Source of the DNA: Psococerastis gibbosa | Lineage: Eukaryota; Arthropoda; Insecta; Psocodea; Psocidae | Length of the DNA stretch: 64,000 nt | Direction of reading: 5' to 3' | Assembly (NCBI GenBank): GCA_963971405.1 | Contig: OZ020491.1 | Span: forward strand, 18,594,855 to 18,658,854 | Notes under the pieces: model-generated | What the model was told of the DNA's origin: nothing | The model's database searches: none | Seen by the model: only the letters and a program-made list of their open reading frames with translations | Position numbers and translations under genes: made by a program | Shown here: in pieces, positions 9,549 to 63,597 of the stretch | Layout of the letters: each line of letters begins with the position of its first letter | How positions within the stretch are numbered: position 1 is the first letter of the stretch

Positions 9549-9986
9549 TGTGTTAGCTGCTAACTCCAGCATTCTCTCTAGTCTATGAACCAAATCACTG
9601 AACATAGGTCGGTCCGAGGGCTTGTAGCTCCAGCAATCATTCATTATGATGTACATTTCAACAGAACATCCAGGCGGCTTTTCCATTCGATATCCATTCC
9701 GAAGCATTTTGTACAGTTTCTGGTGAGAAACTGCAGGATACGGGTTTGCTCCCAGGGTCATAATCTCCCACAAGAGTACCCCGAAGGACCATACGTCCGA
9801 CTGGGAAGTGTACACGCAGTGGGCCAGGGCTTCCGGGGCCATCCACTTTATCGGCAGTCTCCCGGCTGTTTTTTTTCGGTAATAATACTGACTGTTAATT
9901 TCACGGGCCAGCCCAAAATCGGCGATCTTCAGAATGTCATCGTTACAGACGAGGACGTTCCTTGTTGCGAGGTCGCGGTGAATAAA
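9549..9986 (-). CDS. Receptor kinase exon 3: catalytic and activation loops
   Basis: HRDLATRN (the usual form is HRDLAARN) and DFGLAR give the catalytic Asp and metal-binding Asp. The activation loop has adjacent tyrosines (YYYRKK) before [25 protein letters not shown] and SDRPMF close the C-lobe. All residues needed for catalysis are visible, so the kinase looks active. Confidence 0.9.
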
Positions 9987-12900
9987 CTGCAACATACACC
10001 AGAATGTTCGATTTCTATTTTTATGTGTTTAAAACTGATAGCTTGTCACATTCTCAATCTGCATTTGCAAATTCCATTTTAGATTCTTCCTGCAGCATAG
10101 AAGATTTCATATACCTTCCTTGAGGTCAGATATTCCATTCCTCGTGCGACTTGATAGGCAAAAGACACCAATGACTTCTGAGTGAGGCCACTGGAGAACA
10201 CTGTCCCCACTGTGCCGCCTGCAGACTCGTGACAGCATGTATCAGATTCTGATCTGTAACTTCCCAAAAACTCCCTCAAATTTCCGTATGGCGCGAACTC
10301 TACAGCCACCAAAAGGGGACCTCCCTGCGTACAACATCCTACCAAATTGATAATGTTGGCATGCCTGCCAATCATTTTCAAAATTTCCATTTCACTCACG
10401 AGGTCGATCATATCTTCATCGGTATGATCATCTAGAATAAAGGTTTCTGCTGTTATAGTTTGAATTGTAGAAACACACTATAAAATATAAAGCATTTTAA
10501 GAGAAAATATCAAATAAAAACGTTCTTGTCATTTACAATATTATATATTAATCAATTGACAACAGCTTATTAAACTTCTTTACATCTACATACTACTGAG
10601 CATTGGACCTTTGCTTTTTAATAATTAATGCACTGCATAGCATACCATATATACATACATATTGCAATATTATTCTGTAGTATTATATTGGCTGTCCATG
10701 CTAGTCTATGCAATTGGCTTATCGATCAATCCAATCAAGCCAATTTCGGGACCTATACTAATAGAAAAATAGGAATAACGGACTTTTCATTTGCACAGCT
10801 TTTCATTATGCTATTATCTTTAAGGAACCTTAAAAATTAAGAGTGAAATAAATGTAGCTATTACTCAGGCTCACCTTTTAACATTTTTACTGCCACAACA
10901 TTGCTCAATCTCTCATTTTTGCTCCATGTACACTCCGCTTGAACTACGCGTCCGAACGCGCCCTCTCCAAGAGTTTTTCCCAAGTTGATACTATCCCTTG
11001 GTATCTCCCAATCAGGGTCCACAAGCAAATCGAACTCTGGAGCCAGCTGAAAGCTTCTCAAGTCTTCTACCAATACCTGTTCACAATAGGAGCACCTTTA
11101 TAACAAGCAGACGGTTGCTTACCACTTACTTAATATTATATTGCAACAGGCGTAAACCGGAAATAACGAAGTACCTATAGTCATTTAGCTTTCAACCTAT
11201 TCAGTACATCTTAGTGTAAAGTACCTTTTCTAGATCTTCCGAGATATATTTACCCTTTCTCTCACAATCTTGACAATCGGCGGCACAATTTCATCCTTTG
11301 CAGCATTATTGTCAATGTTCAATTTAAAATGCTTGAGCACCACAATCATTTTCTTCTCCATCATTTGCTGAGTTCTTGTCGTCATCTGGCGGTTAATTTT
11401 ATTGTTCCGGCGATATAAGTAACCAAAAATAGCTGCGACTATGATTAGCGAAGTGCAGAAGGCAGCTAAGAAGACTTGGAAGACACTTACACCTTCTGCA
11501 AAAAACAATCGGAAAGCGCTACATATTGTGCAAGAACAGCCGCTACTAATAGCAAGTAGTAAAAGTTTGTTAATCAAGTTTGTAACGCTTGGTAAGGAGA
11601 AATCACTAGAAAAGTCACATTTGACAAATGGGTCCTAACTTGTTTTGATTCCTTATTTCCAAATATAATTAAATTTCAAGGAAAAATCTCCGCGACCCTT
11701 CATTTACGTATTCAATGCAGAAGCAACAAGACGTGATGGAAAAGTTAGGTGATTTTTGTAAATATCAGCAAAAGGGGCATTGGATGGTTCCCGTCAAATC
11801 CTGAAATCCGCAGCGGCCCTATATGGTTGGTGGCGCAATTATTCTACTTTTAACTTATGCTTCTAAATAATTATGACAAGCATCCCCAGTTTCTACGTCA
11901 GCATTTATATTATACTCCTCTTTTCCCCAAAAATTTCAACTCAATGGCCATGGTTAGAAACATTTTAGCTAATTTATTTCTACTGCATTGATGCAGCCAA
12001 TAACCATACAGCTAGCTGGTTTATAAAAATAATAAAAATCTTACTGTCGACAATTTGGAGATAACCATTCGACGTAGCGAACTCTGTGACGCAAGAATAC
12101 CAGCCTTCGTCTCTATGAGTCACGTTAGTAATAATTATCATCTGAGACGCGTTCTTAGGGGGGTTCTGCAAAATTATTACAATACCGTAAAATAAGTTAC
12201 CGTTTATTGTATTATAGCCCTTTTACGATTTGGTGGATGTATACCCATGTAGGCCCAACGCCTTTCTTTCTGCCAAAGAAACCTCTCTGATACTACTATC
12301 GGAGATAGCCGCTCAAATATTGATCTTTCAAACATAATTCAACCAGCCCTTCATGATTCACTTTGCATTGAAAACCTACTCGTTTCTTTCCAAACTATTT
12401 TGCCGTTATAATTACAAATACTTTCACGGCCGGAGTTACGTGAAGAAGCAGTAGAATCCGGGATTATTATTATTATTATTATTTAGAGAGTTTAGCTGAC
12501 ATAGGTCTTGGAAGTTGGGACCCTTTGAACAGCATAATTATTGGGATCACATCCCAATCATTCATATTATGACCATTGCCAATTAATCAACTGTCTAAAA
12601 ACAGCAGCTTAACCGTGTTAGCCGCAGATTCCACCGACCGGCTAGGGCTAAATACAAAAACGGTGACGTGGTAGCAGACATTAAAGACTTAGGCGGTGTC
12701 TCCACCGACCTCGCATTGCAGAATGCAAATGACACTGACGGAAATGTTTGTTTTACTATATGCCATAGTTAAAATTGATCAATGATCATACAGTAAAATC
12801 ACAAACAAACTAGCTAAAATTAAAAAATGGCGTCATGGGATATGTTAATTACAAACATTTTAATAGATTTCTATAAAAAGAAAAATTCTAATTTCCGTCA

Positions 12901-15900
12901 ATGTCATTTGCATTCTGCAATGCGAGGTCGATGGAAACCCCGCCTAAGTCTTGAATGTCTGCTACCACGTCACCGTTTTTGTATTTAGGCCTACCCGGTC
13001 GGTGGAATTGGCACCTTAGCAAAGACAGCCATGTCCTTCAACCTGGTCTATGTAGGCAGCCCTAAAACAGTCAAACCGCGCCCGCCACAGGGCCAACCAC
13101 GTGTTCCGCGGTTTCCTCGGACTCATTGCACTACGGGCAGTAGTGGAAGTAGATAGTGGAACTGCGCAGACATATAAATACAGATCTTAGAATTCTACGC
13201 AGTTCCACTGAGGATGTCGACCGCAGATGTATACGCAACGTTTGAAAGTACGCTTTCAGAACGACCACGGCCTATCATCCCGGATTCTGCTGCTTCGTCA
13301 TATTTTGCCGTTGATGCTGGAGCGATTGGCAACCGTTCACCGCTAGACCTACCAGAGTCATGCTAGAATATACAGAATAGTCTGTATGATCCGGATTGTT
13401 CCTTGAGTAAAACCATTTCATGGAATTCTCATCAATGTCAGACGTAGGGACGCATTCCATTATCACATCTGAGTTGATTTCAGCTGTTTCGTTCACTAAC
13501 TCTTTGGTGAAGTAGGGACCTGCAAATAATCGGTGCCGTAATCAGTGACTAGTTCTATTTTTTCTTTTTTTAAGTTTTACTTCTAACTTTACTTCGAGCG
13601 TTAAAACTTAAACGAGCGAGAGCGCATGTGTGGCACTCTACTGTATGACATTTTCTAAGATAAAATGGGATATAGAAGGCTCTTAAAGTAAGTAAGTACA
13701 ATATTGTCTTTGCATTTTCACCATGAGTTAATTGCAAGAGTGCTGGCCGAAAGACCCAAAATTCGTCCATAAAGACAATTTTCTTTCTTTCATTCACGAC
13801 ACTTCATATTATTATGAAAGTAACGTGTGATCGAAACGAATGTACGACTGACCGCATACACAGTATATACTGCAGTTGTTCTCTTAAACAAACACTTACC
13901 GTCAATTTGTAGATAAGCCTTCGATGTAACATTATTTGCAACACATGAGTACCAGCCTTCGTTTCTATGAGTTACATTAGCAATAATTATCATCTGAGGC
14001 ATGTTCTTGACGGACGTCTGCAAAATGACTACGGTTAGAGTTATATTGTACATAGTTTTACAATGTTTTAGCAATATCGCTATTAGGGACCTACTGGCTT
14101 ATAGTAAGTAATTAAGTGGTAGCACTGTAGTAGTGGTTAAAGTACTACTAGTACTATACTTGCGTTGGGGATTGCCTTCATATTGGCATACTGAAATTAT
14201 TTCATTAATTTAATTCTAATATCTAAATCTAATTTAACAAATTAATTGAACTGAAATTTTGGATATCATTAGTATTTAATGGTACCAGAGTCTTGCGAGA
14301 AACTGCGGAAAAGCCGTCTTCATCAAAATGTTTCCTGGTGTAGATCCATCTAATGGAATTAACATTAGAGTTAAACTGAAGGACGCATTCCATGGTAACA
14401 TTTGTGAACATTTTAGCTGTTATGTTCACCAACTCTTTAGCGAAGTAGGAACCTGTAAGTGAATCGTAATTAAAGCTTATGTTTTTATTACCTTGTGAAC
14501 ATTGTTTATGAAAAATTTCTCTTGGACGGCACAAGGCTATAGAAACAGTACAGGAACAAGGTAGGTAAGTAGGTCTATCTAGCGATAACGATAGTCTTTT
14601 TCCTAGGTCTTATATACAGTTTTGGTATCATAATATTACATATGCTTATGGCGGGAATTACTCCTAACACCATGCTCATAGCGGGGACTTGCTCTGTCGG
14701 GGGTGCAGGTCTAGCGCTTCCTCGTCAAAGTCGAAACTGGGCTTCTCTTGTTATGAATTACCTCGAATGCTATGCGAAGTATGGAATTTAAAAAATTCTC
14801 TTACCTTCATTGCAAATTTGAGCTACGAAGTCAAGATCCCATTTTCCGAATAAACATAGTACATGATTCCCCTTTTCTGATGGCAACGGACAAATAAAAT
14901 GCGCGAAAATGTTATGCGGCACCGTATTGTTGACACTAGTAAGAGTAACATTATGGGAATCGACAGATGTGCTGTATTTCCTCACTCTTATTCCAGGCAG
15001 AATTTCTGGCAATTGACCACAACCTTCTGAAATAATAAATAAATAATAAATTACAGTAGATCTATAGATTTGAACCACGTCCTTTTTCAAATGATGGATT
15101 CATTGCAGATTGTAGCTGCATTAAACGTGACCCATCGAAACTCCTCGGGCCAAATATACCACTAGTTTGTAGTATAGTTTGTCAACATCGGTGTTCCAGC
15201 ATATATAAACGTATTCTTGATTTCTTTCACGTTAAGGCAGAAATTGTAATACACTACGTCCAAAAGGGTACTAACCAGGTGGACAAAGAAGAACTATTGC
15301 ATTATTATAAGCACCTGTAAAAACAGAACTTTTATCATGGTGAGTGCCACCTGCTGAAAAATTTTGGAATATAGTACCGTACAAGGCCGTAGCCAGGAAT
15401 TTTTTTCGGTGGTGGCTATGGTGACTGTGATGCTATGTAAGTTAGTGTAAATTGTTTTCTTGAGAACTCATTGTATCTTGTGTATTCTTTAGAGGTTGTG
15501 GTGTTACTCGTATATATGATAATAATAATGATAATAATACTAATCTGAGTTTTCAGAAAGTTTGTAGTTTTTAAGAAGATTTCATCTGATCACATCCATC
15601 CAACTTTGAAGGGGGCTAACCTCTCGTTGTACTTTGTACTTGTCTCCTTTATTCATCATTCTACTAAGCACTTCTATATTACTAACATTTTTTTACTAAC
15701 TTTTACTAACCGTTTATTACTATCGTAAAGATACCTGTGCAATATAAATAAATGTATTTCGTCTATTATTCACTTTCAATTTGTTTTAATATATATTTTT
15801 AATCGCACAGATAGATACGATCTTTGCTCTAGCCCCCCCCCCCCCTCTCTTTGACAAGAGTTATTATAGTGGGGGCTCTCCGCAATTCTATCCAAGCCGG

Positions 15901-18900
15901 CGACATTGATGTCAATATTTCTCTCTCCTGCTTGATTTGACGTCCATCCGTGCAGACACGAGTTTCTCATTGTGCAGGGTGGATGGTCTATCATGATTTA
16001 AACTTTGTATCAATGAATCTATATTGTAAACTGTTATTTTTGGAGGAATATATTTTACTTTACTTTTCGTTAACAGAGTTAGTTCTATAATAAAGTTATA
16101 ATAGAAGAACAGCGCATTGTGTCATGAGCTCTGTCTGTCTTGATTTGAAAAGTTGAGCCAGCCACGGCTCGAACTAACATACCAGCACAATATGAAGGCC
16201 CATTCTGACTTGGCTCGCTCACCCAGTGTCCATTTCTGCAATTTAAGCTAGTCGAACCTTGAAGAGTGTATCCCGCCTTGCACTCGTAATCAATGACACT
16301 ACCAGATGGAACTGTTGACTCGTATTTGTAGTTGTAAGGAGAAATCTTAAGAATAGTATGTATACTGTGGCTCGGAACTTGACATGGCCTGATGAAGAGA
16401 AAATTAAATGCAATAGACAAATTTAATGTACTGCCCGACCTCGATAGGATGACATTTGGAAAACTTAAAAAATTCGAATAAACTCGGTGTTTCGCTTATG
16501 TAAGTTTTCCAATAATTAACAGAGTGTTCCTAAAGTCATCCTATCGTGGTTGGGTAGTATTGTATCTGACTAACAAAGGGTCAAATTTTTACAAAATTCT
16601 GGATGGTAACAGTACACACACATATAACATGCAGTGGCGGATTGACCAATAGGCAACTGAGGCAAATGCCGATATCCACGCGCGCGTACATAAAAGATTT
16701 TTTTGAACATATTATGAAAAAAAAATTAAAATAATTATCAGATATTAAGAAATAATTTTTCAATTTTTTTTTAATAATTAAAAATAGTAGTTTTACTTTT
16801 ATTAGTGAACACCCCCCCCCCCCCCTATTACATGCAATCATTATTAATGTAATATCCGCGACAAGGGCAGTCCCTATATCCCCTCAAAGCCAAATCCGCC
16901 CCTATATACTACTAATAACCAAGTGACAAGTTTTGGTACAGGTTCCTGGGGGCATTGCCCAGAGGTAAGCTTATACGTAGCAACTGCGGTAGGACCCTTC
17001 GTTCTGGAAAACGATGCACACAACATGGTTAAAAAGAGAGGACTTTTCTTTCAGGAGGAATATTTTGTTTAAGCAACAGTCTCTTTCAAGAATGTTGCTT
17101 TGTGGTGCTTTCTACCGAATCTCAACCAACGCTATGGTTTCCGCGGAATTTGAAAACTTCGGTCTTTTTCTAACACACCTCGCATTTGGTAAAGGTGGTA
17201 ATCCAGTAATTTTACATTGTGGGGCGTATTCATCCGAGTGATCGCTACACTCACTCCGTCCGTTACATATCGCATCGCCGTCTACGCATGCGCCATATGC
17301 ACAGCGAAATGCATACTCTGGACACCTGGGAATAAAAATAAATCATGAGTTTCCTTTAACAAGGATATATCTAACTAGACTGTAAGGCATCTTACCAGTT
17401 TTAATTACTTGGGCACTAGGCGGCTATTCCACTTGTCAATATTCCGTCATTTGTGCATCAATAATTGATGAGATTTTTGTTTTCAGGAGACTATTATGTA
17501 GATACTTAACTTATCTATAATAAATTAAGTTATAATATAGTAGAGACTTATTATTGATGCATAAATTACGGAATATTGAAAAGTGGAATTGCCACCGATT
17601 TACTTTTAACATTATATAGGCATTAACAGCAAAAATCTCTTGAAGTGCGGAGTCTAGAGGATTGGAGATTCATAAAAAGGGTGTAGAATATAGCATTAAT
17701 CGAGGAATCAAGTGAAACGTCTACTGAAAAAATTGTGCTTCAGTAAAATGTAACTGACATATGCTTCCTCAATTCATGCCAGTTATTGGTTATTTCGAAG
17801 ATACCTATACTATCTCTCACCAGAAACATGAGAGTTTTCCAATTTATAATATATTCCTTTACAGTGAAAAGTCAGAGAGAGATATCAAAAGTAAAGCAAT
17901 TCCAACTGAGCCATCATTCTACGCATTTTGTTGTGATCCATATCCGTGATTTGTCCCACATGAGTGAGTCCGGCAATGTATCAATGGATGACTGAGCATT
18001 CTTTCATATAATTCAAGTGAAAATATTTTTTATGTACGGAATTTTGCCTCTTGTATAAAAACGTAGTATTTTTTCAGGAAACTGATTTTTTAAATTGCCT
18101 ATCCTATGGTGTGAGGCTTGTAAGGATTCCCAAATGCCAAGATTGGGATAGCTAATCATGTACCGTACAATTAGTAGCCCAGAAGGAATTTTATTCATCA
18201 CCCTAAAAAGAAAACTTGCAAAGGCAGTTAGGCATACTTACGTAAAATTAAAGCAGCTGATTATATTTTCATCAGAACCATCTTCGCAGTGTACGACTCC
18301 ATCACAAAATTGATAAGTCTCGAAACAATCTCCAGACAAGCATGATAACTTCGAAGCCCTGAAATGTGAAAACTGTGATGTTAAGGCATATATTTCAGAA
18401 TATTTTGAGAACAAAGAATGACAGTCGTTTTAACTAATATGCTCTGAATATACATATGTATGTATCTTGACGAAATTAACCTAAAATAGGCGATATGAAA
18501 ATCATGTATAAAAAAATACAAGCATTCCAAAGAAGCTAAATTTTCTATGGTTATAAAAATTATGAACCTGCGGGCCTACTATGCCGTTTAGTTGAATAGA
18601 GTCAATTGCAGAGAGCCCCGAACTTCAAAGTCAAAGAAATCACTTCCGTGTCGCTAGGTTCACTTTGGCAGAAGACCGACCAGGTATTATTGTACAGAAA
18701 TCTGTCAAATAGAATTGGATTGTGTCTAGATAACAAAATAAATGCCCAAAAGAAATTCGGCTGACTTACCCACAATAGGTTTGCCTAGGTGGCAGTATTA
18801 CGCCTGGACAATGTGGAAGAAGTTCATCTGACCTGTCAACACAATCTTCTACCTCGTTGCAAATGACATCCCCGGCCACACAGGCTCCGTATGCACAGCG

Positions 18901-21900
18901 AAATGCATACTCAGGACACCTGCTAGGATTTACAAATAGTGAAGGGAGAGTTCACATGAGCTGTGGGGGATATCTTGTACAGCATATTATATTACAATAT
19001 TATTGTATAATATATAGCACTGAAATTAAATTAACTTTTATTGAAGGGGTAACCTCCTCGTTATATCCGAAAATTATAGAAATATAGAAAAGCTGGGCTT
19101 GGCGGGATTCGAACCCACAATCTACGCCTAACCGGGGCATCGTCTTAATCGAACCATGTCAAATAGAGCATATAAGTAGAGGATATACAGTCCATCAACT
19201 GTTCTTGTCGGGGCTTGTGGTCCAGCGCCCCGGTTAGGCGTACATCGTGGGTTCGAATCCCGCCAAGCCCAGTTTTTCTATATCCTCTAATTTTCGGTTA
19301 TATCTTTTATAAGTTATTTCATATATGGACAAAATGTTTACAGTAGTAAAGAACACGTCTCCAGGTATCACCTTCTTGCCACGGGCAGAGGACCGAGACG
19401 ACGTTGAATTCTACCAACCAAACCTCTTACTCTATTATATATATTTATATATATAGGCTATATATATGGAAGCATTTAAAAAGCTTTTATTTCACACAAA
19501 CTGAGCCCCTATGATGTCTCAGTGACACAATCCCGTTTGTAGCGCATTTGCGGAGATAGGGCGGAACATGATAATTCACTTAATTTGTCATAATTTTGAA
19601 TATCGGAATTACTGCTAGTCTGCTTGAATTATTCTTTAATTGTAGGCGTACTCGCACGCCTGTGATAAGGCGCATATTCCACCGACCTGCTAGTGCTAAA
19701 TACAAATACGGTGACGTGGTAGCAGACATTCAAGACTTAGGCGGGGTTTCCACCGACCTCGCATTGCAGAATGCAAATGACGTTGATGGAAATTTTTGTT
19801 TTACTCCATGCCATAGTTAAAATTTATCAATGATCATAGAGTAAAATCACAAACAAACTAAAATTAAAAAATTGCTTCATGGGATATGTTAAGTACAAAC
19901 ATTTTAATAGATTTCTATAAAAAGAAAAATTCTAATTTCCGTCAATGTCCTTTGCATTCTGCAATGCGAGGTCGGTGGAAACCCCACCTAAGTCTTGAAT
20001 GTCTGCTACCATGTCACCGTATTTGTATTTAGAACTAGCAGGTCAGTGGAATATGCGCCTTAGCTGAAGTCAGAGAGAATATATTATAAGTATAGTATCT
20101 ATCTTTATAAAAATCAAACCACTTTCCCGCGTGAGTATGTATACGTATGTATGTACGAGCGGGCCATAACGTTATCCGGTAGCGGTGTGTATTTTCTTAT
20201 GGGCGATGAACCATCACTCTGATTTGCATAACGTTAGGCGGTAATTCCGTGACCGTACAACGTCGCTATAGGGATCCCTTATTGGACAGTTCATAGCCAT
20301 ATGCAGCTGCGACTTTGTTCGATGAATGGACATTGAGTTTTAGACTGGTGTTTGGGAAAACTAAAAGAGCCGGTCCGAGTTTACTCGAACATGCTTTCCT
20401 ATTTGATCAATTAGTAGATAGATAATATGAGTAATTTCATGCTAAATAATTTTCCTATAGTTAAATTTCGGATCCCTCGATGTCCCCATGACCGTAGCCA
20501 GATTGGGGGGGGGGGGGGGGTCATCTGGCATCCCTGAATGTGAGGTAACTTCATAATATTTTAAAATCCTTAAAACTCGCTCCATTGTATATAGTGTACG
20601 CTGCAAACATTGGGGGGGGGGGGGGGGGGGGGGTTGGGCCCGGATCAGTTCAGGATCTTGGATTTTTATTACTGGGGCGCCAATAAGGTGCATAAATGAA
20701 ATGGCCTTTCTCTCAAGTCGTGTAAGTCAAGTAGTGGTAAAGAATTGGGGCAGCACTACTGGCAAGGGGGGGGGGGGGCTAGAGTCAATGGCGTAGCCGG
20801 AATTTTTTTTGGGGGGTCTGGTTTTCATGCAGCATCAATACATAAATTTTGCCCAATTACGATAGGCTTTCGAAGGGGGCAGTGTTTCATTTTTAAAATG
20901 TTACAAAAATATAGAAAAGCCGTTCTCATGGACTAATTAGGGGCATGATTTTAATTTCCCTTGCCCAGGCCGAAGGGGGGCCCGGCGGTTTCCCCCGGGG
21001 AAAGTTTCTTAAAATATAGGCCTGAAATGGTTTGTCGGCAAAAAAATGATTTTGGAGACGATAACTTTATTAACATGGAAACAGGTGTCCATTTGGGGGG
21101 GGGGGGGGTCCAGACCCAGCTGACCCTCCCCCCTCGGCTACGCCACTAGCTGGAGTCCCCCCTGAGGAAATATTTAATGAGGCAGGTGCGGAAAAAAAAG
21201 GTTTTTCCTACCAGTATTTTAAATGTTTACTTGTAGCTGCAATTGTAGGTATCTCCCATCTTTACGGAGCATATCCTATCAACAACGAATATTTTTCTGT
21301 TCACGCATCAGACTTTCGAATTTAACAGGTTAAATCACGCATGAATGCCCTATTTTAATATTTAATATTTCTTTACAGTGCTGGTGGATAAATAGGCTAA
21401 AGTACAAAATCTGCAAATGCTAAGTTATGCAACTGTGTTGTATATAGTCCAGATCCGGAAATTCGTGCCTTTCCCAATGGATTTGACTTGATAATTCACC
21501 CTTGACTCTAGATACCTAGTCCCAATGTACCTACATAAAGGCGAAGTTATCTTTTGAAAATCAAGATTTACGGTACCTATTATTTTTCGCCTATTTATTC
21601 AAATTCTCCCTCCCTGGGGGATATCCTCTGGCTCCCCTGTTTGCAGTTACATATACTTACATAATAATTATATTAATAACTTACTTCTATAATCTAAAGT
21701 TTTTTTTTCGGTGTCAAAAATTGATAACAATGATTATGTTCACGCAACAGGCTTTCAAAATGAATTTGATAAACAACGCATGGATGCCATATTTTATTAT
21801 TTAATATTTTTTAACATTGTTATTTGCTGGTGGATGAAATTAATTGGCTAAAATTATAAAAACTGCAAATGTTTAGTTATGCAATCGTGTTGTATACAGT

Positions 21901-24900
21901 CCAGATGTGAAGATTCATGTTATATCATTATCATAAATTAAATAATTATATCCTCCATCATGCACAACTGCATGAGATCATCGACAGATCACTTTATGAG
22001 GCAGAACGAGTTCTAATTGAAAATATTCAAGTAAATTTAATTGTTATGCAACTTGACAAGGGTAACCAATAAACTCCAAGAAATCCAGCAAATTTGGAGC
22101 AGCCTATAACTCAAAAAAGAAAACCGCTTTGGGTATTTCGTTGACCCTTGAAAACAATCTCATGACAACTTTTCACATTCAGAAATGTGGTTTGAATATC
22201 GTAAGCCGCTAATAGATACCCCGTTAATGCCGCGTATATAGTCTACGATATAATATAATTATTAACAATATAATTCATTTTCCAAAAGCATCATACACTT
22301 TATTTTACTTTTTAGTGATATTTGTAGCCTACCTACTTTTAAATTAAATATAGAATTTTTTACATTAATTTAATATTTATTATTATGATTTTACATTGTA
22401 GCGCAAAAAATCAATAAAGTCATCATATTAAATTGCGGCGACCCCATCCCCCCCCCACCCTGCCCCAAATAAAAATTCGACTGAGCCCGTCCATACAGTT
22501 CAACCGACGGTTCACTGCGGTTTCAAGCCAATCAGATGGCCGTGATTTCGCGCCAATTCTATTGCATTGAACCGACGAAAACACGCCATTATAGTAAACC
22601 TAATATATTAATTATCAATTAATTAAGTCGGTTTGCAAACTTTTTACTTAACTAGGAGGCTTCGTATGCCGCATACTTCCACCTTGAACCCAAGACAAAG
22701 CAATAATAGCGATTAATATTGAAGAAAACTGGAATTTAAAAATTACCGGATAACGTTATGGCAGGCTGGTGCTACGCGTGTCCGCCTAGCGTTATGGCCC
22801 GCCCGTATAGGTGTATGTATGTATGTATGTATGTGGACACTTTTTTGACTCGCCATAACTCGGGACCCACTGGCACCAGAAACTTGCGGATACACTCAAA
22901 ATTTAGAGAAAAATCGGGACATGGTTTTCCTGTAGGTCCGAACCTGAAAAAGTGAACCTGATCAGGTACAGGAGCGATAATCGGTTCGAAAAATCCCATA
23001 AGAAAGCATTGGAGGGTTCAACGCAATGCCTTAGCCAGACCTTTGAACCTACCTCAATTTAAATTATATCACTGCCTTCGTCCATTCTTCCTCTTTCAGG
23101 CCATGCTATACATGATGTGATGGGGCAAGGGGTTCGACTTTGGGGGGTGGAAACGTGAGGGGGTGCGCCCAAATTTTCCGATTTTCAGCGAAAATAGGCC
23201 TTTTTGGGCTGCGTTTTTGGGGGTGTTAATATCAATTCGAAAACTTCAAACTACTTTTGTTCTTTTCCACTGTTCTTATTCTTTTCAGTCATATATTCAG
23301 TTTTGCTATGCGCCTTTTCGTTCGGGTTCAGGTGAGTTGGTAAGCAGTCCCTGTTTTGCCGAAAAACCGGTTTAAAGGGTATATTTCCAAATACATGCAT
23401 AGAGTAAAAAAATTCCACAGCCTGCAATTTTCCATCGAAATTAATTTTTAATCTCTCATTAGAAGCAGTATGAAATAAGCTTTAAAACTAGTATAAATAC
23501 ATAATTTCAAATTCACCCCTTCCCCCTTAATCACGAGTGGAACACAAAGTTTTTAAAAATGACGCGAAAAAAACTGCATTTCTAGCAATCCCATTTAAAT
23601 TGCATGGGTGGGTTTAAAGCAATATTTTGGGCAGATGTGGAAGGCCTATGTTAATTTAAATTATATCAGTGTCTTTGTCCGCTCTTCTTCTTTTAGGTCA
23701 TGCCAAATTTGTCGTGATCAAGCAAGAGGTTCGGCTTTGGGGGTGGAAGCGTGACGGGGTGCGCCCAAATTTTTCGATTTTCAGCGAAAATAGGCTTTTT
23801 CGGCCGCGTTTTCGGAGGTCTTGATATCATTTTGAAAACTTTAAACTACTTTAGTTCTCTTCCTCCTGTCTTACTCTTTCCAGAGATATATTCAGTTTAA
23901 CTATCCGCCTCTTCGTTCGGGCTCAAGTGATTTGGTAAGCCATAGCCATCAGCGTTTTGACGGAATACAGGTCTAAAGTGTACCTTTGAAATTACATGCA
24001 TAGAGTAACAGGATTCCACAGCCTGACCTCTTCCACCAAAATGATTTGTTAATGTCTCATTAGAAGCAGTATAAATTAACCAATTTTCATAGTTGTTAAC
24101 TGCTTCGTTTGGGTTTGGGGGCATTCACATAAGTCATGCGAGCCCCGAAGGGGCGAGCTGCGTAATGCCAAATGGAACCACGTTAATGCGAGGCCCCGCA
24201 GGGGCGAGCTGCCGCCCGCGGCAGGCGCAATGGGGGCGGGGCCGCGAAGCGGTCCCAAGCTCCGCTTGTAAATAATAAAAGGTAAATCAGTACTAGGCTA
24301 CTATTTTTTAAATAAATATGATGTGAGTTACCAACTTTCAAAAGAGATGGGACTTACTTAAAGGATGGGTCCGAACAGAGATGGAAGGTTTCATCTGAGC
24401 CATCTCTTCAATCTTGTTTGCCGTCACAAACAAGGGTTTGGTCAATACACTGGCCTCCCGTTACACAAGGCCACTCCAAGGTGCCACTGCATTTCGGTGA
24501 TCCAATAGTCCCATCTGTTAACAAAATGCAAAATTTTATAAGGTAGGCCTATGTGACACATGAATAAATGCCACAGTGCCGACAAATCAAAAACTGCTGC
24601 CAGTTAACTAAGCAGAAGGCGAAATATTAATTTTATGATTGAAGGTTCATCGGCCGTTAGTATATATTAAAACGCCCCCCCCCCAATTAAAAATAAAAAT
24701 ATTTTCTGGCCAACCTCATGCATTAAATAATAAATAATTAAATAAGAACTTTTTATTGTTTCTATTCCTAAGCCAACCTAGCGGAGTTAGGGCTATAAAG
24801 CCCTCTCTTACACTCACCTAGGAAGACCCGGGACCGCCTGTTTTACATGCCCTCCGAAGCATGGCCAGAAAATTTAGCCAGTGTGGTACTCGAACCAACA

Positions 24901-25181
24901 ACCTTTCGGGTCACAGCATAGGTACTACCTAATTTATTATGGAAGGGAGTAAACCTATACAGACTCAAAATTATTTGAACAATGTAGGTACTTGCACTGA
25001 ATGTAAACCGAGAAATAAGTCAGAACTTACAGATGTAGATGGAATGATCATCAGTGGTATTTTCTGGAGAAAAGTAATCTTCAGGAATGTTAAATTCTGA
25101 AGTCTCAGCAGAATAAACTTCAGAACTAGTGTTTAATTTTGAAGTTTGGCATCGGGAAAGAGCAATGAGGAAAAGGACCCC
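9549..25181 (-). CDS. Receptor tyrosine kinase: signal peptide, LDLa x4, CCP, Cys4/Wonton-like module, Ig x2, TM, FGFR-type kinase
   Basis: Fifteen minus-strand exons connect with matching phases and give 974 visible codons. In transcription order: 25181-25031, 24514-24358, 18919-18770, 18358-18242, 17325-17179, 16388-16183, 15026-14805, 14452-14286, 14017-13900, 13519-13353, 12165-12045, 11495-11254, 11076-10875, 10431-10115, 9986-9549. All have GT-AG borders, mostly GTAAGT-like donors. The intracellular part is closest to FGF receptors by its G-loop, [18 protein letters not shown] and WMAPEAL motifs. The extracellular order of four LDLa, one CCP and one Cys4 module is that of insect ModSP/HP14 proteases, but Ig domains and a kinase follow instead of a protease. 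One in-frame TGA lies in LDLa 1. The start codon is hidden by the gap and the final exon is unassigned. A two-gene explanation remains possible but the phases argue against it. Confidence 0.78.
10115..10431 (-). CDS. Receptor kinase exon 2: alpha-C helix, hinge and kinase insert
   Basis: [13 protein letters not shown] supplies the alpha-C glutamate, and [15 protein letters not shown] plus GNLREFL match FGFR lobe 1 and hinge. A short Ser/Gly-rich kinase insert follows, then QVARGMEYL. Donor AAG|GTATAT in phase 0. Confidence 0.88.
10875..11076 (-). CDS. Receptor kinase exon 1: G-loop and catalytic lysine
   Basis: Contains DPDWEIPRD, the FGFR-like lead-in to the kinase, the glycine loop LGEGAFGRV (visible residues 691-699) and VAVK with the ATP-binding Lys 719. 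It ends MLK plus one base, matched by the next exon to give MLKDD, the FGFR consensus at this point. Confidence 0.88.
11254..11495 (-). CDS. Receptor transmembrane and juxtamembrane exon
   Basis: A hydrophobic helix of about 22 residues (around visible residues 580-602, [16 protein letters not shown]) is followed by the basic stop-transfer YRRNNK and a Lys/Met-rich juxtamembrane segment. Acceptor ttttttgcag; donor AGG|GTAAAT in phase 0. Confidence 0.8.
12045..13519 (-). CDS. Receptor Ig domain B (exons 13353-13519 and 12045-12165)
   Basis: A clear duplicate of domain A. The first exon is also 167 nt and starts PYFTKELVN where A has SYFAKELVN; the second has [10 protein letters not shown] where A has [10 protein letters not shown]. 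Cysteines and the core Trp (MKWFY) are kept. The intron between its exons holds a nested MITE (12620-13016) and a copy of the CACTGARGATG repeat. Domains A and B could be serial or mutually exclusive, because all borders are phase-interchangeable. Confidence 0.75.
12620..13016. mobile_element. Nested palindromic MITE (GGCG family)
   Basis: Outer arms carry CCACCGACCGGCTAGG and GTGACGTGGTAGCAGACATT; an inner palindrome beginning GGCGGTGTCTCCACCGACC interrupts the outer dyad centre. It lies in the receptor intron within Ig domain B. Arm mismatches suggest an older copy than those at 49139 and 63598. Confidence 0.8.
13190..13300 (+). repeat. Repeat family with CACTGARGATG...CGMAACGTTTG core
   Basis: The segment CCACTGAGGATGTCGACCGC, then CAACGTTTGAAAG, recurs at 25382-25480, 37120-37230 and inverted at 41480-41660. 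It is a dispersed repeat inside a receptor intron. The CTGARGA / GAAAC pair resembles a hammerhead core but no proper stem II was found. Confidence 0.55.
13900..14452 (-). CDS. Receptor Ig domain A (exons 14286-14452 and 13900-14017)
   Basis: Exon one (167 nt) carries the first Ig cysteine (MECV) and the core Trp (IRWIY). Exon two (118 nt) carries the second cysteine in the [10 protein letters not shown] context. The split inside an Ig domain is as in FGFR Ig3. Exon one ends phase 0 at CTG|GTACCA, and exon two leaves one base. Exon lengths and phases equal those of Ig domain B. Confidence 0.75.
14805..15026 (-). CDS. Receptor exon 7: degenerate CCP / Wonton-like Cys4 module
   Basis: The cysteines lie in the contexts [20 protein letters not shown] and QICNEG, a loose CCP pattern with a long first loop. 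In ModSP/HP14 the CCP is followed by a CCP-like module called Wonton; position and Cys4 count fit that. The exon ends with one base left over, matched by the first Ig exon. Confidence 0.65.
15976..16066 (+). repeat. Dispersed repeat end, second copy of 1095-1190
   Basis: Begins CAGGGTGGATGGTCTATC and ends in TTTACTTTACTTT. Near-identity with 1095-1190 marks it as mobile DNA in a receptor intron. Confidence 0.55.
16183..16388 (-). CDS. Receptor exon 6: CCP/sushi module
   Basis: A canonical CCP with four cysteines: [21 protein letters not shown] and SYC. CCP modules are beta-sandwich protein-binding units. The acceptor tcttcatcag and donor GTATGT are good, and phases fit both neighbours. Confidence 0.8.
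16633..16903. mobile_element. Possible hAT-like element with poly-C tract
   Basis: The left end AGTGGCGGATTGACC and right end AAATCCGCCCCT are roughly inverted, and a C-tract sits inside. Similar GGCGGATT ends occur at 50881-51053. The inverted ends are short, so this is tentative. Confidence 0.35.
17179..17325 (-). CDS. Receptor exon 5: LDLa module 4
   Basis: An LDLa module with HSDE motif, starting [14 protein letters not shown] like module 2. The FRCxYGAC signature is, from memory, typical of insect ModSP/HP14 LDLa repeats. The donor G|GTGTGT splits an Arg codon completed by the CCP exon. Confidence 0.75.
17418..17597. mobile_element. Palindromic MITE, AGGCGGCTATTCCAC subfamily
   Basis: The start AGGCGGCTATTCCACTTGTC is mirrored by an imperfect right arm (GAAAAGTGGAATTGCC). 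The interior matches the larger copy at 42339-42964, which carries a hAT insertion. It lies in the receptor intron between LDLa 3 and LDLa 4. Confidence 0.65.
18242..18358 (-). CDS. Receptor exon 4: LDLa module 3
   Basis: Five cysteines plus CEDGSDEN give an LDLa module whose first cysteine comes from the preceding exon. The short C-x3-C spacing (CLSGDC) resembles LDLa 1 more than LDLa 2 and 4, consistent with an ABAB duplication of a module pair. Donor AC|GTAAGT. Confidence 0.78.
18770..18919 (-). CDS. Receptor exon 3: LDLa module 2
   Basis: A complete LDLa module starts [14 protein letters not shown] and contains DRSDE. The first 14 residues are identical to those of LDLa 4 (exon 17179-17325). 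The exon also supplies the first cysteine of the next module (TYCG). Phase 2 in and out. Confidence 0.8.
19061..19305. repeat. Inverted pair of tRNA-like sequences
   Basis: The right arm contains a 60-base tRNA-like unit (19211-19270): acceptor arms GGGCTTG and CAAGCCC pair over 7 bp, GTGGG/CCCGC encloses TTCGAAT as in a T arm, and GCGCC/GGCGT could pair as an anticodon stem. The D arm is almost absent and the base before the putative anticodon is not T, so it is not a normal tRNA. The left arm (19061-19139) is an inverted copy of its 3' half plus flank. A SINE foldback or tRNA-derived element is likely. Confidence 0.6.
19668..20060. mobile_element. Nested palindromic MITE (AGGCGC family), TA borders
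   Basis: Starts AGGCGCATATTCCACCGACC and ends with its inverted copy, with TA on each side. The inner GGCGGGGTTTCCACCGACC palindrome sits at the outer centre between GACTTA and TAAGTC. Located in the long receptor intron between LDLa 1 and LDLa 2. Confidence 0.85.
20061..20784. repeat. Repeat-rich intron DNA with poly-G tracts
   Basis: Begins with a TCTATCTTTATAAAAATC stretch and GTATGTATGTA tandem sequence, reminiscent of Helitron starts, but no matching 3' end was identified. Two G-tracts of 12 to 20 bases follow. No coding sequence is supported. Confidence 0.3.
20785..21147. mobile_element. hAT-like TIR element with GGCGTAGCCG ends
   Basis: The left end ATGGCGTAGCCGG and right end CGGCTACGCCACTA are inverted copies. 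Poly-G runs flank both ends inside. The GTGGCGTAGCC terminus is common in insect hAT-type MITEs. No reading frame of note. Confidence 0.5.
21148..23055. other. Receptor intron, AT-rich, no exon seen
   Basis: Long AT-rich intron sequence. A GTAT microsatellite lies near 22810. I see no exon with receptor-type cysteine spacing here. Confidence 0.35.
23056..24090. repeat. Tandem pair of a roughly 597-base repeat
   Basis: AATTTAAATTATATCA starts both units, at 23056 and 23653. Shared blocks include GGGGTGCGCCCAAATTTT, TTTTCAGCGAAAATAGGC and ACATGCATAGAGTAA. The second unit ends in the GC-rich block at 24137. Divergence of some 15% by eye suggests an old duplication. Confidence 0.6.
24137..24270. 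repeat. GC-rich cluster of short palindromes
   Basis: Within 130 bases there are several GC hairpins: GCCCCGAAGGGGC, GCCCCGCAGGGGC, CCGCCCGCGG and CCGCGAAGCGG, with AGCTGC spacers. It is far richer in GC than its surroundings. It could be the end structure of a rolling-circle or other DNA transposon, since it directly follows the 597-base repeats. Confidence 0.55.
24358..24514 (-). CDS. Receptor exon 2: LDLa module 1 with an in-frame TGA
   Basis: The exon encodes an LDLa module whose cysteines and DGSDE calcium-binding motif are in order, except that the codon of the fifth cysteine (24410-24408) reads TGA. The local sequence is CDGKQD-stop-RDGSDE. The exon is otherwise open, with good splice sites (ttaacag acceptor, AA|GTAAGT donor) and phases matching its neighbours. 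A single-base allele, a sequencing error or a real stop are all possible. Confidence 0.65.
24727..24930 (-). mobile_element. tRNA-derived SINE, minus orientation
   Basis: On the minus strand a B-box-like GGTTGTTGGTTCGAGTACC lies near the head, and the A/T-rich tail lies toward 24727. The body (AAGCCAACCTAGCGGAGTTA on the plus strand) recurs at 50582-50800, and its complement at 38083 and 44245. It is in the intron before LDLa 1. Confidence 0.6.
25031..25181 (-). CDS. Receptor exon 1 (partial): signal peptide and acidic linker
   Basis: The visible frame starts inside the gap edge with a hydrophobic run (VLFLIALS) ending RCQTS, typical of a signal peptide core and cleavage region. About 40 Ser/Thr/Glu-rich residues follow. 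The donor T|GTAAGT leaves one base, which completes a Tyr codon with the next exon. The initiator Met must be in the N run or upstream of it. Confidence 0.65.
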
Positions 25182-25381
25182 NNNNNNNNNNNNNNNNNNN
25201 NNNNNNNNNNNNNNNNNNNNNNNNNNNNNNNNNNNNNNNNNNNNNNNNNNNNNNNNNNNNNNNNNNNNNNNNNNNNNNNNNNNNNNNNNNNNNNNNNNNN
25301 NNNNNNNNNNNNNNNNNNNNNNNNNNNNNNNNNNNNNNNNNNNNNNNNNNNNNNNNNNNNNNNNNNNNNNNNNNNNNNNNN
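25182..25381. other. Assembly gap of 200 N
   Basis: Exactly 200 undetermined bases. The receptor start codon should lie here or beyond, because exon 1 reads into the gap in the middle of a signal peptide. The round length suggests a placeholder, not a measured size. Confidence 0.95.
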
Positions 25382-28275: not shown

Positions 28276-28859
28276 TGAAAAGCGCGTCAGAATAATTAAA
28301 ATTAATTAAATTAGAAGATAAACGGTAAAGGTGTAGTTTAGCTACCCCTCAAAAAATCACAAAATTTGGTTCTATATCGTTGATTTAGCTTTAAAGAAAC
28401 CCATTTCCGAAAGAATTAAAAGTCGAAAAAGTATAGTTTATGAGATACAGCCCAAATTAGTTCGAATTTTGCAGGTTAGGTATAGGTCATAGGAACAAAT
28501 TGCTCATATTGAGCGAGCATTGACGTGTTGACAAGTTTTGTGAGGTTGCATGAAAGGCGCTCCGGTGTTTTTTCTCTTATTTTGGTGGAAAAAGTTTTCT
28601 ATTCGCAACGTATTAATAACCATAGTGATCGGGAAGGGACTGGACACGTTTATCCAAGGCTGAAGGGTCAGTGCCTATTCCATTTTCTACATTTTTTGGC
28701 TAATTTGTCTGTCTGGATGTGTGCTGAGCTGTTGTGAATGCGCAGACTGTGACTATAGCAAGAACGGCTCTCGAAAGTTAAGCGTGCTCAGGCGCTGTGA
28801 AAATACACTACACAGGAATTGACAATCAGCTGTGATATTGAATTGATAAGAGTCTTAAC

Positions 28860-29921
28860 ATGTTTAAACCAGCAACATTCTTACAATATTCTCGACAGAT
28901 ATCTACTGTTTGCGTGATAATAATGGTGGACTGTGCAAAATGCGGGAAGCAACTAACCGAGACCAAGGTCCCTTCGTGCGCTGAATGCTTTGGGAGTTAC
29001 CATCTTGAGTGCGTAAATATAAGATTGAGTGTCTTTAAGCAACGCACTCCCGAACAAAGGGCTACTTGGCGATGCCAGGTGTGCAAAGCAGCTAGTGACC
29101 CAGCGTACTCGGATAAGGCACAGCTGAAGGCTATTGAGAGCAAAATTGATAGTCTAGCCGTCGGACTTAAGAAAATGGAATCAGTGCCAGAGGAAATAAA
29201 AACTATGCAGTCATCCCTGAAATTTCTGTCTGACATATATGACGTCATAAAGGGTGAGTTACAAGAGGAAAAAAAGAAGAGAGAGGTCTTATCTAAAGAG
29301 GTATCAGTCCTAAAAAATCAGAACCAATGGCTAAATCGAGAATTGTTAAAGATAAAAACAGATGTGAGCGATCTCAACCAATATGGCCGGAAAAACAACG
29401 TTGAGATACATGGACTTGACATAACCGAAAATGAAGACCTCATGAAGGTAATAACGGATATTTCTGAGCACCTTCGACTCCCAGTAATACAACCAAACTC
29501 AATCGAAGCCTGCCACCGACTGAAAACACCAAAAGTGAAGCCAGCAGTCATAATTAAGTTTTCAAGACGTAAGGATGCGGAGGAGTGGCTAAAAAAGAAG
29601 AGAACAGGACTCACGAGCAAAAACCTAATCACTGGAGGCTCCGACGACAGAATATTTATCAATGAGAACTTAACGCCATTCAATAAAGAGTTATTCTGGC
29701 AGGCGAGGAGAGCAGCCAAAAACATAAACTACAAATTTGTGTGGGTCTCAGATGGTCAAATATTCATGCGGAAAGACGAATACAACCAAAAACTACGCAT
29801 TCACCTACTAGAAGACATACCAAAGAGCCCGTCAAACAATGCCCCCCCATCAGCTGGTACTACCACTCCTACTACTACCACGGCCAGTGTTGTTGGCACA
29901 AGTTCACGGCACCAGATTTAG
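28860..29921 (+). CDS. LINE ORF1: PHD-type zinc finger, coiled coil, RRM-like region
   Basis: The 353-codon frame is open. A Met at 28923 gives MVDCAKCGK and may be the better start. Residues about 25-77 have a Cys/His pattern of a PHD finger (CAKC, CAEC, YHLEC, WRCQVC). A coiled coil follows (about 90-175), then QYGRKNNVEIHGL, which opens the nucleic-acid-binding region typical of L1/CR1-type ORF1 proteins. It likely binds the element RNA. It ends in a Thr-rich tail, 40 bases before ORF2. Confidence 0.85.
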   Translation: MFKPATFLQYSRQISTVCVIIMVDCAKCGKQLTETKVPSCAECFGSYHLECVNIRLSVFKQRTPEQRATWRCQVCKAASDPAYSDKAQLKAIESKIDSLAVGLKKMESVPEEIKTMQSSLKFLSDIYDVIKGELQEEKKKREVLSKEVSVLKNQNQWLNRELLKIKTDVSDLNQYGRKNNVEIHGLDITENEDLMKVITDISEHLRLPVIQPNSIEACHRLKTPKVKPAVIIKFSRRKDAEEWLKKKRTGLTSKNLITGGSDDRIFINENLTPFNKELFWQARRAAKNINYKFVWVSDGQIFMRKDEYNQKLRIHLLEDIPKSPSNNAPPSAGTTTPTTTTASVVGTSSRHQI

Positions 29922-29961
29922 ACTAGAGTAGTTATGTACTTATAATTTTTTAAACCGTTAC

Positions 29962-32805
29962 TTGATAATAATGGCATTTAACATTTTTTATTGCAATATT
30001 CGCTCGATTAGGCAGAACTTCGACCACCTAGTAACACTACTTCACTCAGATGTCTATAAAAATATCAACTATCAGCTCATAGTGCTTAGTGAATCTTGGA
30101 TTACCAAATCAGAGTTCAAACTATTTAAAATACAAGGCTACACGGGAAGACTACAAGAAAGAGCCAATGGAAGATCAGGGGGCGTGGCCCTGTACATCCG
30201 AGACGACGTTCAACATGATATTGTCACCACTTTATCCACATTATATCATGAGAGTATACTCATTAAAATAAAAAGTAGAAAAATAAACTTTAGGTTGTTA
30301 TGCTCGTACCGAAATGTAAAAACTAACATAAATAACTTTTTAGATGAAATAGATGACCTCTTACACATGGAGAGTACAAAGTTTGACGCTCTACTTGGTG
30401 ACATAAACCAGGATATAAGTACACAAACATCAGATTCTATAACCTATTTAAATTATTTTTCCTCACAGGGCTTTCAATCGCACATACAAGGCCCAACGAG
30501 AGTTACACCCACTACATCTACCACAATAGACCATCTATTCGTAAAAAATAATATGCAAGCTATAATTACTACACATTGCAGTGATACAGGTATCAGCGAC
30601 CACAAGTCTATATCTATCACTATACAGGGAATAGACCCTATAATAAACGTTCAAAAATCGTACACATATTGCGACATTCACTTACTTAAAGGACATTTAA
30701 ATAGGGTAACTGGCAACCCATTGGATTGTACAACACTCAAAATGTTGATCGGGCCTATGAGATAATTGAATGTGAAATACAAAAAAGCATAAAAAGCTCA
30801 ATGGAAACAATCAGGCTGTCTAATAAAAACAGAAAAAGAAAAGAATGGGTAAGCAATGAAATTATAAACATGTATAACGTAAAGAATAAATTATATAAAC
30901 TCTGTGCACGTTACCCCTTTAACAATAGCCTCCGCGATGAGCTTAAAACGGCCCAAAAAAAATTAAAAAAATTGATTAAAAAAACGAAAACACAGCATTT
31001 TATGAAAAAATTTCAAGAGGCTAAGAGTACCCGCGAGTTTTGGAATGTAGCGAATTCTGTTATCAAACCTAGGCCTAAAAAATTTATAAGCTCAATCAAG
31101 ATTAGTGGAACCAGCTATGAGGTAGAAGGAAATGAATCATTAATTGCGGACCACTTCAACTCCTACTTTGCAAGCATAGCCCAAAATTTAATAGCCAGTA
31201 GTGGAATAAGCGGCTCAGATCCTTTACCTGAAATAATAAAACAGTCATATTCAATGTTCTTCCCTTCCCTTACCTTAAATGAGGTAGATCTAGCAATAAA
31301 AAAATTAAAAAAGAAAAGATCGTCAGGGATTGACGGTATTACCTGCGAAATGCTTAAAGAATGCAAGGAACCCCTACTACCAGCCCTCCACCACCCTCTC
31401 TTTGTCCCAAGGAAAATACCCTGAGGGACTCAAGCAAAGTAAAATAGTACCTATCTTTAAAGAAGGGGATCCCTCACTAGCATCACAATACAGGCCCATC
31501 CATGTACAACCAGCGATTGGAAAATTGCTGGAAAATTGCGTTCAAGCAAGGCTTCTTAAATATCTGTCGACCACGGGATTTTTATCACCAAACCAGTTTG
31601 GCTTTCGGGCAGGACGGAGTACAGAGCTAGCAATTTTTGAACTGACAAAAAGAATTTTGGATTCATTTGAAAGAGGAGAAAAAACAGCAGTCCTACAAAT
31701 AGACCTAAGCAAGTGTTTTGACCTTATTGATCATACCATAATGATAAACAAATTAAAGCAACTTGGAATCCATAAATCTTTACTTCGATGGTTTCAATCA
31801 TATTTTTCTGGACGAAAGCAAGTAGTACAAATAACAAGTGCTAGTGGATCATCCCTTAGCTCCCCTCAACCCATTACACATGGCATTTTTCAAGGCAGCG
31901 GCCTTGGACCATTATGTTTTTTAGTCTTCGTAAATTCCCTTTCGGAACTGTCAGTATCCCATAAATTATTAAACTTTGCAGATGACTATGCGCTAATTGT
32001 CAAAGCTGGCAGCTCAAATAAACTCGCACAAAAACTGAATTCCGACATGCATCTTATAATGAGTTGGCTAAAACAACACAGATTGATCCCGAACCTAGAA
32101 AAAACAAAATTAATGTACCCTTCATGCAGAGCCACTGATGAGACACCCCCCGCTCTGAAGTATAACGGCATTACAATTGGTAGTACACGGGTAATGAATT
32201 ATCTTGGAGTACAATTAGATGAACAACTGTTGTGGAAGGAGCATATCAACAAATTGCATAGCAGTCTACGCCCAATAAACATGATACTATACAACCTTGC
32301 AAAAATTTTCCCCCAGAAAGCCCTATTACAAATATATAGGGCCTGGTATGAGGCCAAGTTAAGCTACTGTCTGGGAGTATGGGGTGGGGCTGCAACCACT
32401 CACTTACGTCCACTCCGCACAGCACAGAACTATGCACTTAAGACAATTACAAGAACACCCAGGCTGGCGCACTCAAACACAGTTTACAAATCTAGCAATA
32501 TACTACCGCTGGAACTACTATACAATAAGCAACTACTTTCCTTTAATCAGAGGCATATAGCGCATAAAATGGTTAGTCCGTCTGTCAATATCCGAAACAC
32601 TAGATCTCATGCATACGAAACACTCCCACTACCCTCATGGTCTCTTTCGCGCACAAGAAACAGTCTGCTATATAAGGCAATATCAGCCTTCAACATATAC
32701 TCTAAGCACACCTATAACAAACCAGAATACGATGTCAAAAGTAGTCATAAGTCAAAAATAAACCTATACATAGGCCTAACTAACAAATTGAAAACACTCA
32801 CTTAA
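29962..32805 (+). pseudogene. LINE ORF2: AP endonuclease and reverse transcriptase, two frameshifts
   Basis: The endonuclease part (29962-30765) shows CNIRS, LSESW, GDINQD, TTIDHLF and SDHKS, the expected apurinic endonuclease motifs. The frame shifts near 30720-30765 and again near 31385-31424. The RT part shows YRPI, FGFRAGRST, QIDLSKCFD, QGSGLGPL and FADDYAL, with the catalytic DD. The C-terminal part continues to 32805. With two frameshifts this copy is probably not autonomous. Confidence 0.85.
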
Positions 32806-62882: not shown

Positions 62883-63597
62883 TTTCGTACATTTTCGTTG
62901 CGCAATTAATTAGGTATTATTTATGCAGTTTTAGAAGTTAATTGGTAGTAGGAAGTCTATCGACTCGTATCTGTACTTTCGCCTGCTTCATTGCGTGAAT
63001 GGTAAGCTTGTCTCAACTTGTCCATTATCGCTTGTAGCCGGTGTCGGTTGACATTGAGGGCATATACCAGTTGTCCGAAATCCATGGGGTCGTTGGCATT
63101 GGACAAGGGATCTATGGGCAACTATAAGTAGGCCTAGCTCCATAAAATGGCCTTCAAGACATTACAGGAAGTCTATAACCAAATTTCTCTGTAGAAAGCC
63201 TATAATTTCTATAAAAAAAAAAAATGGCCGGCCCTTCATACTACAACTTCTAGGCCTAGTTTAAGTTTCCTACTTCCTTTTATGTAGGTTAATTACGTTT
63301 ATGTCTATGAATAATATATACCGTATTATATTATAACCAGCAGGGGGAATGCAGCCGCCCTCCCCCCGAAATGTTACGACTTTACACTAGATAGAATTGA
63401 ACTTTCTAGACGTGCTTTCACTATATACAGTACTAAAGTAGCATCGCAGCCCTCACCGAAATAAAATCGTGGTTACGAACCTGCATAGAGCTACCGTACC
63501 TACCTATTCTAAGTTAACTGCTCGCTTGCCTGCAGCGTTTAGGAACGGGGGTCTATAAAAAAAGAGATGTATGCTATGGTACGGTATTATTACGGTA
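62883..63597. other. Intergenic or intron DNA with one short dispersed repeat
   Basis: 63066-63170 (GTCCGAAATCCATGGGGTCG...) repeats 36480-36600. Otherwise AT-rich without recognised genes. Confidence 0.4.

Follow-up and report, generated by a model that had tools for sequence, protein, structure and literature searches.

A 64,000-nt stretch of the Psococerastis gibbosa genome (contig OZ020491.1 of assembly GCA_963971405.1, positions 18,594,855 to 18,658,854; hereafter "the window") carries, on its minus strand between positions 25181 and 9549, a series of exons in which the recognition modules of a modular serine protease (ModSP/HP14) are followed by the Ig, transmembrane and kinase modules of a fibroblast growth factor receptor (FGFR). 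We consider it probable, at roughly 80%, that these exons constitute a real chimeric gene, generated by the shuffling of exons from a ModSP/HP14-type gene and an FGFR gene. The exon anatomy, the occurrence of genes of both parental types in this genome and the coincidence of exon edges and phases are all directly visible, and an origin by exon shuffling is, from the sequence comparisons, well supported. The assembled copy is interrupted by one in-frame TGA codon, the significance of which is weighed below.

Exon anatomy of the probable chimeric gene

The gene model, as rebuilt from the sequence, comprises 15 exons and 2940 nt, with GT-AG boundaries at all 14 introns and compatible phases throughout. 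These results bear out the coordinates and phases of the fifteen minus-strand exons proposed in a first-pass annotation of this DNA, although the number of visible codons, given there as 974, came to 980 on recounting. From the N to the C terminus, the model encodes a signal peptide, four LDLa modules, a CCP (Sushi) module, a four-cysteine (Cys4) module, two Ig domains, a transmembrane helix and a full FGFR-type kinase. Pfam searches of the spliced model identified Ldl_recept_a, Sushi (27.9 bits, cut-off 20.7), Ig and PK_Tyr_Ser-Thr (3.7e-91) domains. Ldl_recept_a was found in three stretches of the model part without exons 1 and 2; a fourth stretch, ended before the TGA, scored 18.0 bits and was thus below the 24.1 cut-off. 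The LDLa, Sushi, Ig and kinase parts of the layout given in the first-pass annotation were recovered by the domain search. That annotation had overlooked the stop codon in exon 2.

Exon 1 (25031-25181), an inferred exon whose 5' end is cut by a 200-N gap, would encode a hydrophobic, signal-peptide-like start and an acidic linker, and has a phase 1 donor. LDLa modules 1 to 4 lie in exons 2 (24358-24514), 3 (18770-18919), 4 (18242-18358) and 5 (17179-17325), which share 68, 59, 58 and 78% amino-acid identity, respectively, with the ModSP gene of the same genome. Exon 6 (16183-16388) encodes the CCP/Sushi module (36% identity to the same gene) and exon 7 (14805-15026) the Cys4 module, which occupies the position, and has the exon phase, of the Wonton module of ModSP. 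A further 39-nt exon (15314-15276, minus strand, phase 1-1) would fit the phase; it was excluded from the model, as no ModSP counterpart was seen and an odd cysteine would be added.

The FGFR-type half begins with exons 8 (14286-14452) and 9 (13900-14017), which encode the first (D3a type) and second (D3b type) halves of Ig1. The corresponding halves of Ig2 are encoded by exons 10 (13353-13519) and 11 (12045-12165), i.e., D3a and D3b copies that are 45% and 71% identical to exons 8 and 9, respectively. The transmembrane helix and juxtamembrane region are in exon 12 (11254-11495), the helix being the best hydrophobic stretch of the model (residues 579-597). The kinase is divided between exon 13 (10875-11076; N-lobe, with LGEGAFG and VAVK), exon 14 (10115-10449; middle part, with the kinase insert) and exon 15 (9549-9986; C-lobe, with HRDL, DFG, YYYRKK, APE and SDVW). 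The motifs LGEGAFG, VAVK, HRDL, DFG, APE and SDVW are all intact. One weak open reading frame, at about 7776, was considered as a candidate last exon and was not accepted.

Genes of the two parental types in P. gibbosa

On contig C1, a ModSP-like gene at 52.875-52.889 Mb encodes LDLa1-4, a CCP and a Wonton-like module, followed by trypsin exons. Donor phases, read by eye, agree between the window and this gene for LDLa1, LDLa2 and LDLa3 (phase 2), for the CCP (phase 1) and for Cys4 (phase 1); no donor could be settled for its LDLa4 exon, and the phase match covers these five clearly resolved donors. In the ModSP gene, a phase 1 intron follows the Cys4 exon and leads to the protease exons. No match to a trypsin-like protease was found in the 64-kb window with three ModSP queries at E values up to 0.5. 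When LDLa4 was searched against the whole genome, its nearest match was this ModSP gene (77%), followed by LDLa2 of the same gene (63%) and by generic LDLa exons (at most 55%). The first match of the CCP was a neighbouring gene in the ModSP cluster at C1:52.850 Mb (2.7e-5), with a site on C12 (6.9e-4) and the LDLa1-4-bearing ModSP gene (0.19 only) below it. For Cys4, the ModSP gene again came first, albeit at an E value of only 0.12. The ModSP-like cluster spans C1:52.849-52.889 Mb and consists of the one gene with LDLa1-4 plus upstream pieces; in the latter, the search turned up no more than one LDLa, one CCP, two Wonton-like exons and trypsin exons.

The kinase is of the FGFR type. Most of the named database matches listed are FGFRs, the top-scoring one being an odd Culex "hypothetical protein", and the 60 of 93 PDB matches that were listed are all FGFR1-3, the best of them (FGFR1) being aligned over Ig2, the transmembrane helix and the kinase. 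The genome contains at least 10 FGFR loci whose kinase exons are split alike, i.e., the window (9549-14452) and at least nine others, located at C1:1.76, 38.996 and 39.016 Mb, at C3:45.16 Mb and at C15:0.33, 0.35, 0.38, 4.18 and 4.19 Mb. Drosophila has two FGFR genes. Kinase matches in general were spread over nine contigs (C1, C2, C3, C12-C15, C19 and C20); for comparison, nine chromosomes are given for two barkfly genomes (PMC13219991 and PMC11303940). Identity between the window and its FGFR paralogues was 39-58% over the matched part from the transmembrane helix to the N-lobe, and reached 69% in the kinase. A 28-row kinase tree, which included five of the ten P. gibbosa FGFR loci and excluded a long-branched Culex protein, grouped the P. 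gibbosa FGFRs with those of two lice in a single set (99/97), a position that most likely indicates a host in Psocodea. An earlier tree with all ten loci agrees, except that this long-branched protein falls among the P. gibbosa FGFRs. Several of the FGFR loci stand side by side; the Ig exons at C1:39.016 Mb are duplicated or alternative, and the kinase match at C3:45.16 Mb contains a TAG.

Neither ModSP-type modules in the stretches fetched around the other FGFR loci nor the missing FGFR modules in the window were convincingly detected. LDLa, CCP and Cys4 queries gave nothing better than E 0.32 in the 10-20 kb fetched for each of the other nine loci (gene included), and none of the 48 genome-wide LDLa4 matches lay near these loci. 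With four queries for D1 or D2/acid box, the best match in the 64-kb window (E 0.017) was a stop-containing fragment on the plus strand at 63298. The organization of the paralogue at C1:39.016 Mb was read by eye. Its D2 and acid box form a single exon that ends in phase 1, and its D3 is split over two exons with phases 1 to 0 and 0 to 1. Both Ig domains of the window are split by a phase 0 intron in the same way and are therefore D3 copies; a reading of the pair as D2-D3 was rejected in favor of a tandem duplication of D3. D3 is thus a symmetrical 1-1 module, which accounts for its tandem duplication as well as for a join that keeps the phase.

The exon-shuffling reading put forward in the first-pass annotation is thus strengthened by a ModSP gene of the same genome whose exon boundaries match, and by nine FGFR paralogues that lack such an ectodomain in the stretches fetched. 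Its proposal that the protease had been replaced by the Ig-transmembrane-kinase half likewise agrees with the window, in which the searches detected no protease and no FGFR D1/D2. We propose that a copy of a ModSP/HP14-type gene would have lost the protease exons downstream of its Cys4 exon and joined, via a phase 1 intron, the D3-transmembrane-kinase exons of one member of the FGFR family expanded in this species. The D3 module, running from phase 1 to phase 1, would have been duplicated in tandem, and the product would be a type I membrane receptor.

The junction, the in-frame TGA and the state of the gene

The two halves meet at the join 14805^14452, which links phase 1 to phase 1 at an exon edge in both parents, across a phase 1 intron of 352 bp (14453-14804). 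That a ModSP fragment was placed beside an FGFR gene by faulty assembly, one of the possibilities that the first-pass annotation had listed as refuting its reading, is highly improbable. A 200-N scaffold gap lies directly 5' of exon 1, but this gap (25182-25381) is the only N run of the window, and no gap occurs at the junction or anywhere inside 9549-25181. Furthermore, the junction falls exactly on exon edges, and the divergence of the ModSP-like exons from the C1 gene, 22-68% of residues, shows that they are not a misplaced copy of it.

The exons probably form one transcript. The junction intron, however, contains a TATA-like motif, GTATATAAG, at 14617 and an AATAAA at 14489, which count against a single gene and might instead belong to two neighboring genes, i.e., a truncated ModSP relic and an FGFR-like gene that starts independently of it. 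The same direction is indicated by a weak, short hydrophobic reading from an ATG at 14679, by two further readings of this kind at 16841 and 16691, and by the location of the TGA in the ModSP part. Nonetheless, we regard two genes as unlikely. The TATA-like motif lies upstream of the AATAAA, the wrong order for two genes, and downstream of the ATG at 14679, while the frame that is open into exon 8 runs from 14609 without any ATG ahead of the exon. Scans for a phase 1 signal-peptide exon of a separate FGFR gene, a further refuting observation named in the first-pass annotation, yielded candidates about as frequently on the minus strand as on the plus-strand control (0 and 0 at the strict, 2 and 1 at the middle, and 5 and 7 at the loosest threshold, respectively). 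The strict donor threshold of 5.5 would miss some donors of the model, and all scans required donors of at least 3.5, whereas one model donor scores 3.0, so that a true exon might escape. Each half is also incomplete on its own, because the ModSP half has no protease and the FGFR half no D1 or D2; the latter shows no signal peptide either, and neither would yield a normal product. Finally, the ModSP exons are under constraint, as described below.

The TGA (24410-24408) is in frame in exon 2, at a conserved cysteine of LDLa1 for which the ModSP paralogue has TGC. It is the single stop in 980 codons, and there are no frame breaks; even so, the chimeric model is not one open frame. Since the assembled haplotype has this TGA, no receptor is expected from this allele, barring a base error, and a working receptor, as implied by the first-pass annotation, is not supported. 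Decoding as selenocysteine, or read-through, might be suggested by the cysteine position but is scarcely credible. The site is one of an LDLa disulphide, TGA-A is an unfavorable read-through context, and none of the Rfam families, a library that includes SECIS, matched the 64-kb window at gathering thresholds.

Pairwise codon models show purifying selection on both the LDLa-CCP-Cys4 region and the kinase. Compared with the ModSP gene, the former had an omega of 0.20 over 298 codons (log-likelihood -2169.5, as against -2181.7 at omega 0.5 and -2209.8 at omega 1), and the kinase had an omega of 0.12 over 310 codons when compared with the C1:39.016 Mb paralogue. Ig1 and Ig2, each compared with the D3 of this paralogue, gave omega values of 0.22-0.23. 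Among the columns in which at least six of ten sequences have cysteine, the ModSP gene keeps 36 of 39 and the window 31 of 39. The five losses of the window relative to ModSP comprise one pair in the CCP, one pair in Cys4, and the TGA, and each lost pair would correspond to a disulphide. Because of the ectodomain omega of 0.20 and the loss of cysteines in pairs, the TGA probably arose recently, is polymorphic or reflects an error.

A number of observations weigh against a real chimeric gene, or at least against an intact one. In addition to the TGA, the start codon is hidden by the gap 5' of exon 1, no last coding exon was found downstream of exon 15, and the exon 8 donor at 14286 (GTACCA, score 3.0) is the lowest of the 16 donors scored, those of the model ranging from 3.0 to 7.5. 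The Cys4 module shares only 32% identity, and four of six cysteines, with the Wonton module of the ModSP gene. A Wonton profile, built from six phmmer matches in other insects among the 120 proteins listed, scored the Cys4 exon at approximately 2 bits, i.e., did not find it, although the same profile found the CCP exon. The distances underlying the omega values (t of 2.4 for the ectodomain and 1.6 for the kinase) place synonymous sites near saturation, and the ectodomain constraint may in part be older than the fusion, before and after being inseparable. Between Ig1 and Ig2 (exons 8-11, 12045-14452), omega was 0.94 over 94 codons, with a value of 0.5 only 1.9 log-likelihood units worse; from this comparison, the divergence of the copies appears relaxed or diversifying, with no sign of constraint between them. 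With each of the eight outgroups, moreover, unique changes were more numerous in the window copy than in ModSP, with a chi-square above 3.84 in three of the eight. Lastly, none of the matches listed (120 of 248, 120 of 7945 and 120 of 4264) combined an LDLa with a kinase Pfam domain. As regards a transcript across the junction, the FGFR paralogue at C1:39.016 Mb has no near-identical entry either, its best match being 67% among the 120 of 4264 listed, so the absence of the chimera from that database says nothing.

Some of these observations would also be expected of a chimera that is real but dead, i.e., a recently pseudogenized fusion in which the TGA is fixed in the species. This variant of the exon-shuffling explanation is a distinct possibility, which we hold tentatively. 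The TGA is present in the sole sequence at hand, and a transcript without exon 2 would be out of frame (phase 1 joined to phase 2). Phase 2 signal-peptide exons that would bypass the TGA were not above chance (0 on the minus strand and 0 on the plus-strand control at both the strict and middle thresholds, and 2 and 5 at the loosest). The faster evolution of the window copy and the Ig1/Ig2 omega are in keeping with such a loss. Set against this are the unbroken frame with its one stop, the GT-AG introns, the intact kinase motifs and the paired cysteine losses. For the 332 ectodomain codons counted, one neutral substitution per site should bring about 51 stops, and 10% neutral change hence about five, whereas one was seen. 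If the gene is dead, it probably died no more than a few per cent of neutral change ago.

Under the exon-shuffling explanation, a functioning receptor, in which a Toll/prophenoloxidase recognition front end drives an FGFR kinase, microbial complexes switch on Ras/MAPK, and the TGA is a null allele or a base error, is doubtful. The LDLa repeats of HP14 bind glucan-recognition protein. By analogy, the LDLa-CCP-Cys4 region might gather recognition complexes and so cluster receptors, and the clustered FGFR kinases might phosphorylate each other, feeding Ras/MAPK. In vertebrate FGFR structures, D2 with the acid box and D3 make up the FGF-binding unit, and by this comparison FGF binding by a chimera without D2 is unlikely.

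Elsewhere in the window, an SNF2-related helicase exon was identified at 40667-41095 on the plus strand (PF00176, 8.9e-27). Retroelement-like open reading frames matched reverse transcriptase (PF00078) at 31309-32802 (plus strand) and 54164-55687 (minus strand), and RNase H (PF00075) at 39378-40721 (minus strand). In the retroelement-like region 28842-32802 (plus strand), an open reading frame at 28842-29918 matched Baculo_FP, with a PHD finger below cut-off.

Comparison with known systems

The origin of receptor tyrosine kinases by domain shuffling is usually treated as ancient, whereas here the steps would be readable in one genome. As both parental gene types, the matching phase 1 intron and the duplicated module occur together, each step is testable. 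Were the receptor expressed, extracellular immune recognition would be wired straight into growth-factor signalling, an arrangement of which we found no record; were the gene dead, it would be a well-marked failed fusion. No ModSP-FGFR fusion was described in the titles or abstract openings found, most subscription journals being outside the literature searched.

A passage of PMC1761132 gives the modular serine protease four to five LDLrA domains, a Sushi domain, a Wonton domain and a serine protease domain. Like Drosophila ModSP, Manduca HP14 and honey bee SP49, the chimera has LDLa repeats, a Sushi domain and a Wonton-like module in that order; its LDLa repeats number four, the first of them broken by the TGA. 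It shares exon boundaries and phases with the P. gibbosa ModSP gene where these are resolved, but its Cys4 module and CCP are each one cysteine pair short by comparison. Unlike ModSP/HP14, it has no serine protease domain and has Ig, transmembrane and kinase modules instead. These resemble insect FGFRs (htl/btl type, "FGFR homolog 1") in the kinase, transmembrane helix, juxtamembrane region, D3-type Ig and exon split. Unlike insect FGFRs, however, the chimera has LDLa-CCP-Cys4 where D1, the acid box and D2, not found in the window, would be, and its D3 is duplicated.

ALK, as described in PMC4761370, is a receptor tyrosine kinase whose single LDLa lies between two MAM domains, and which also has a Gly-rich region. 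The chimera resembles ALK in being a predicted receptor tyrosine kinase with LDLa in its ectodomain. ALK is not known to have Sushi or Ig domains, and belongs to a different kinase family. As a receptor tyrosine kinase with an LDLa module is thus already known, what would be new in P. gibbosa is the newly shuffled ectodomain of such a kinase.

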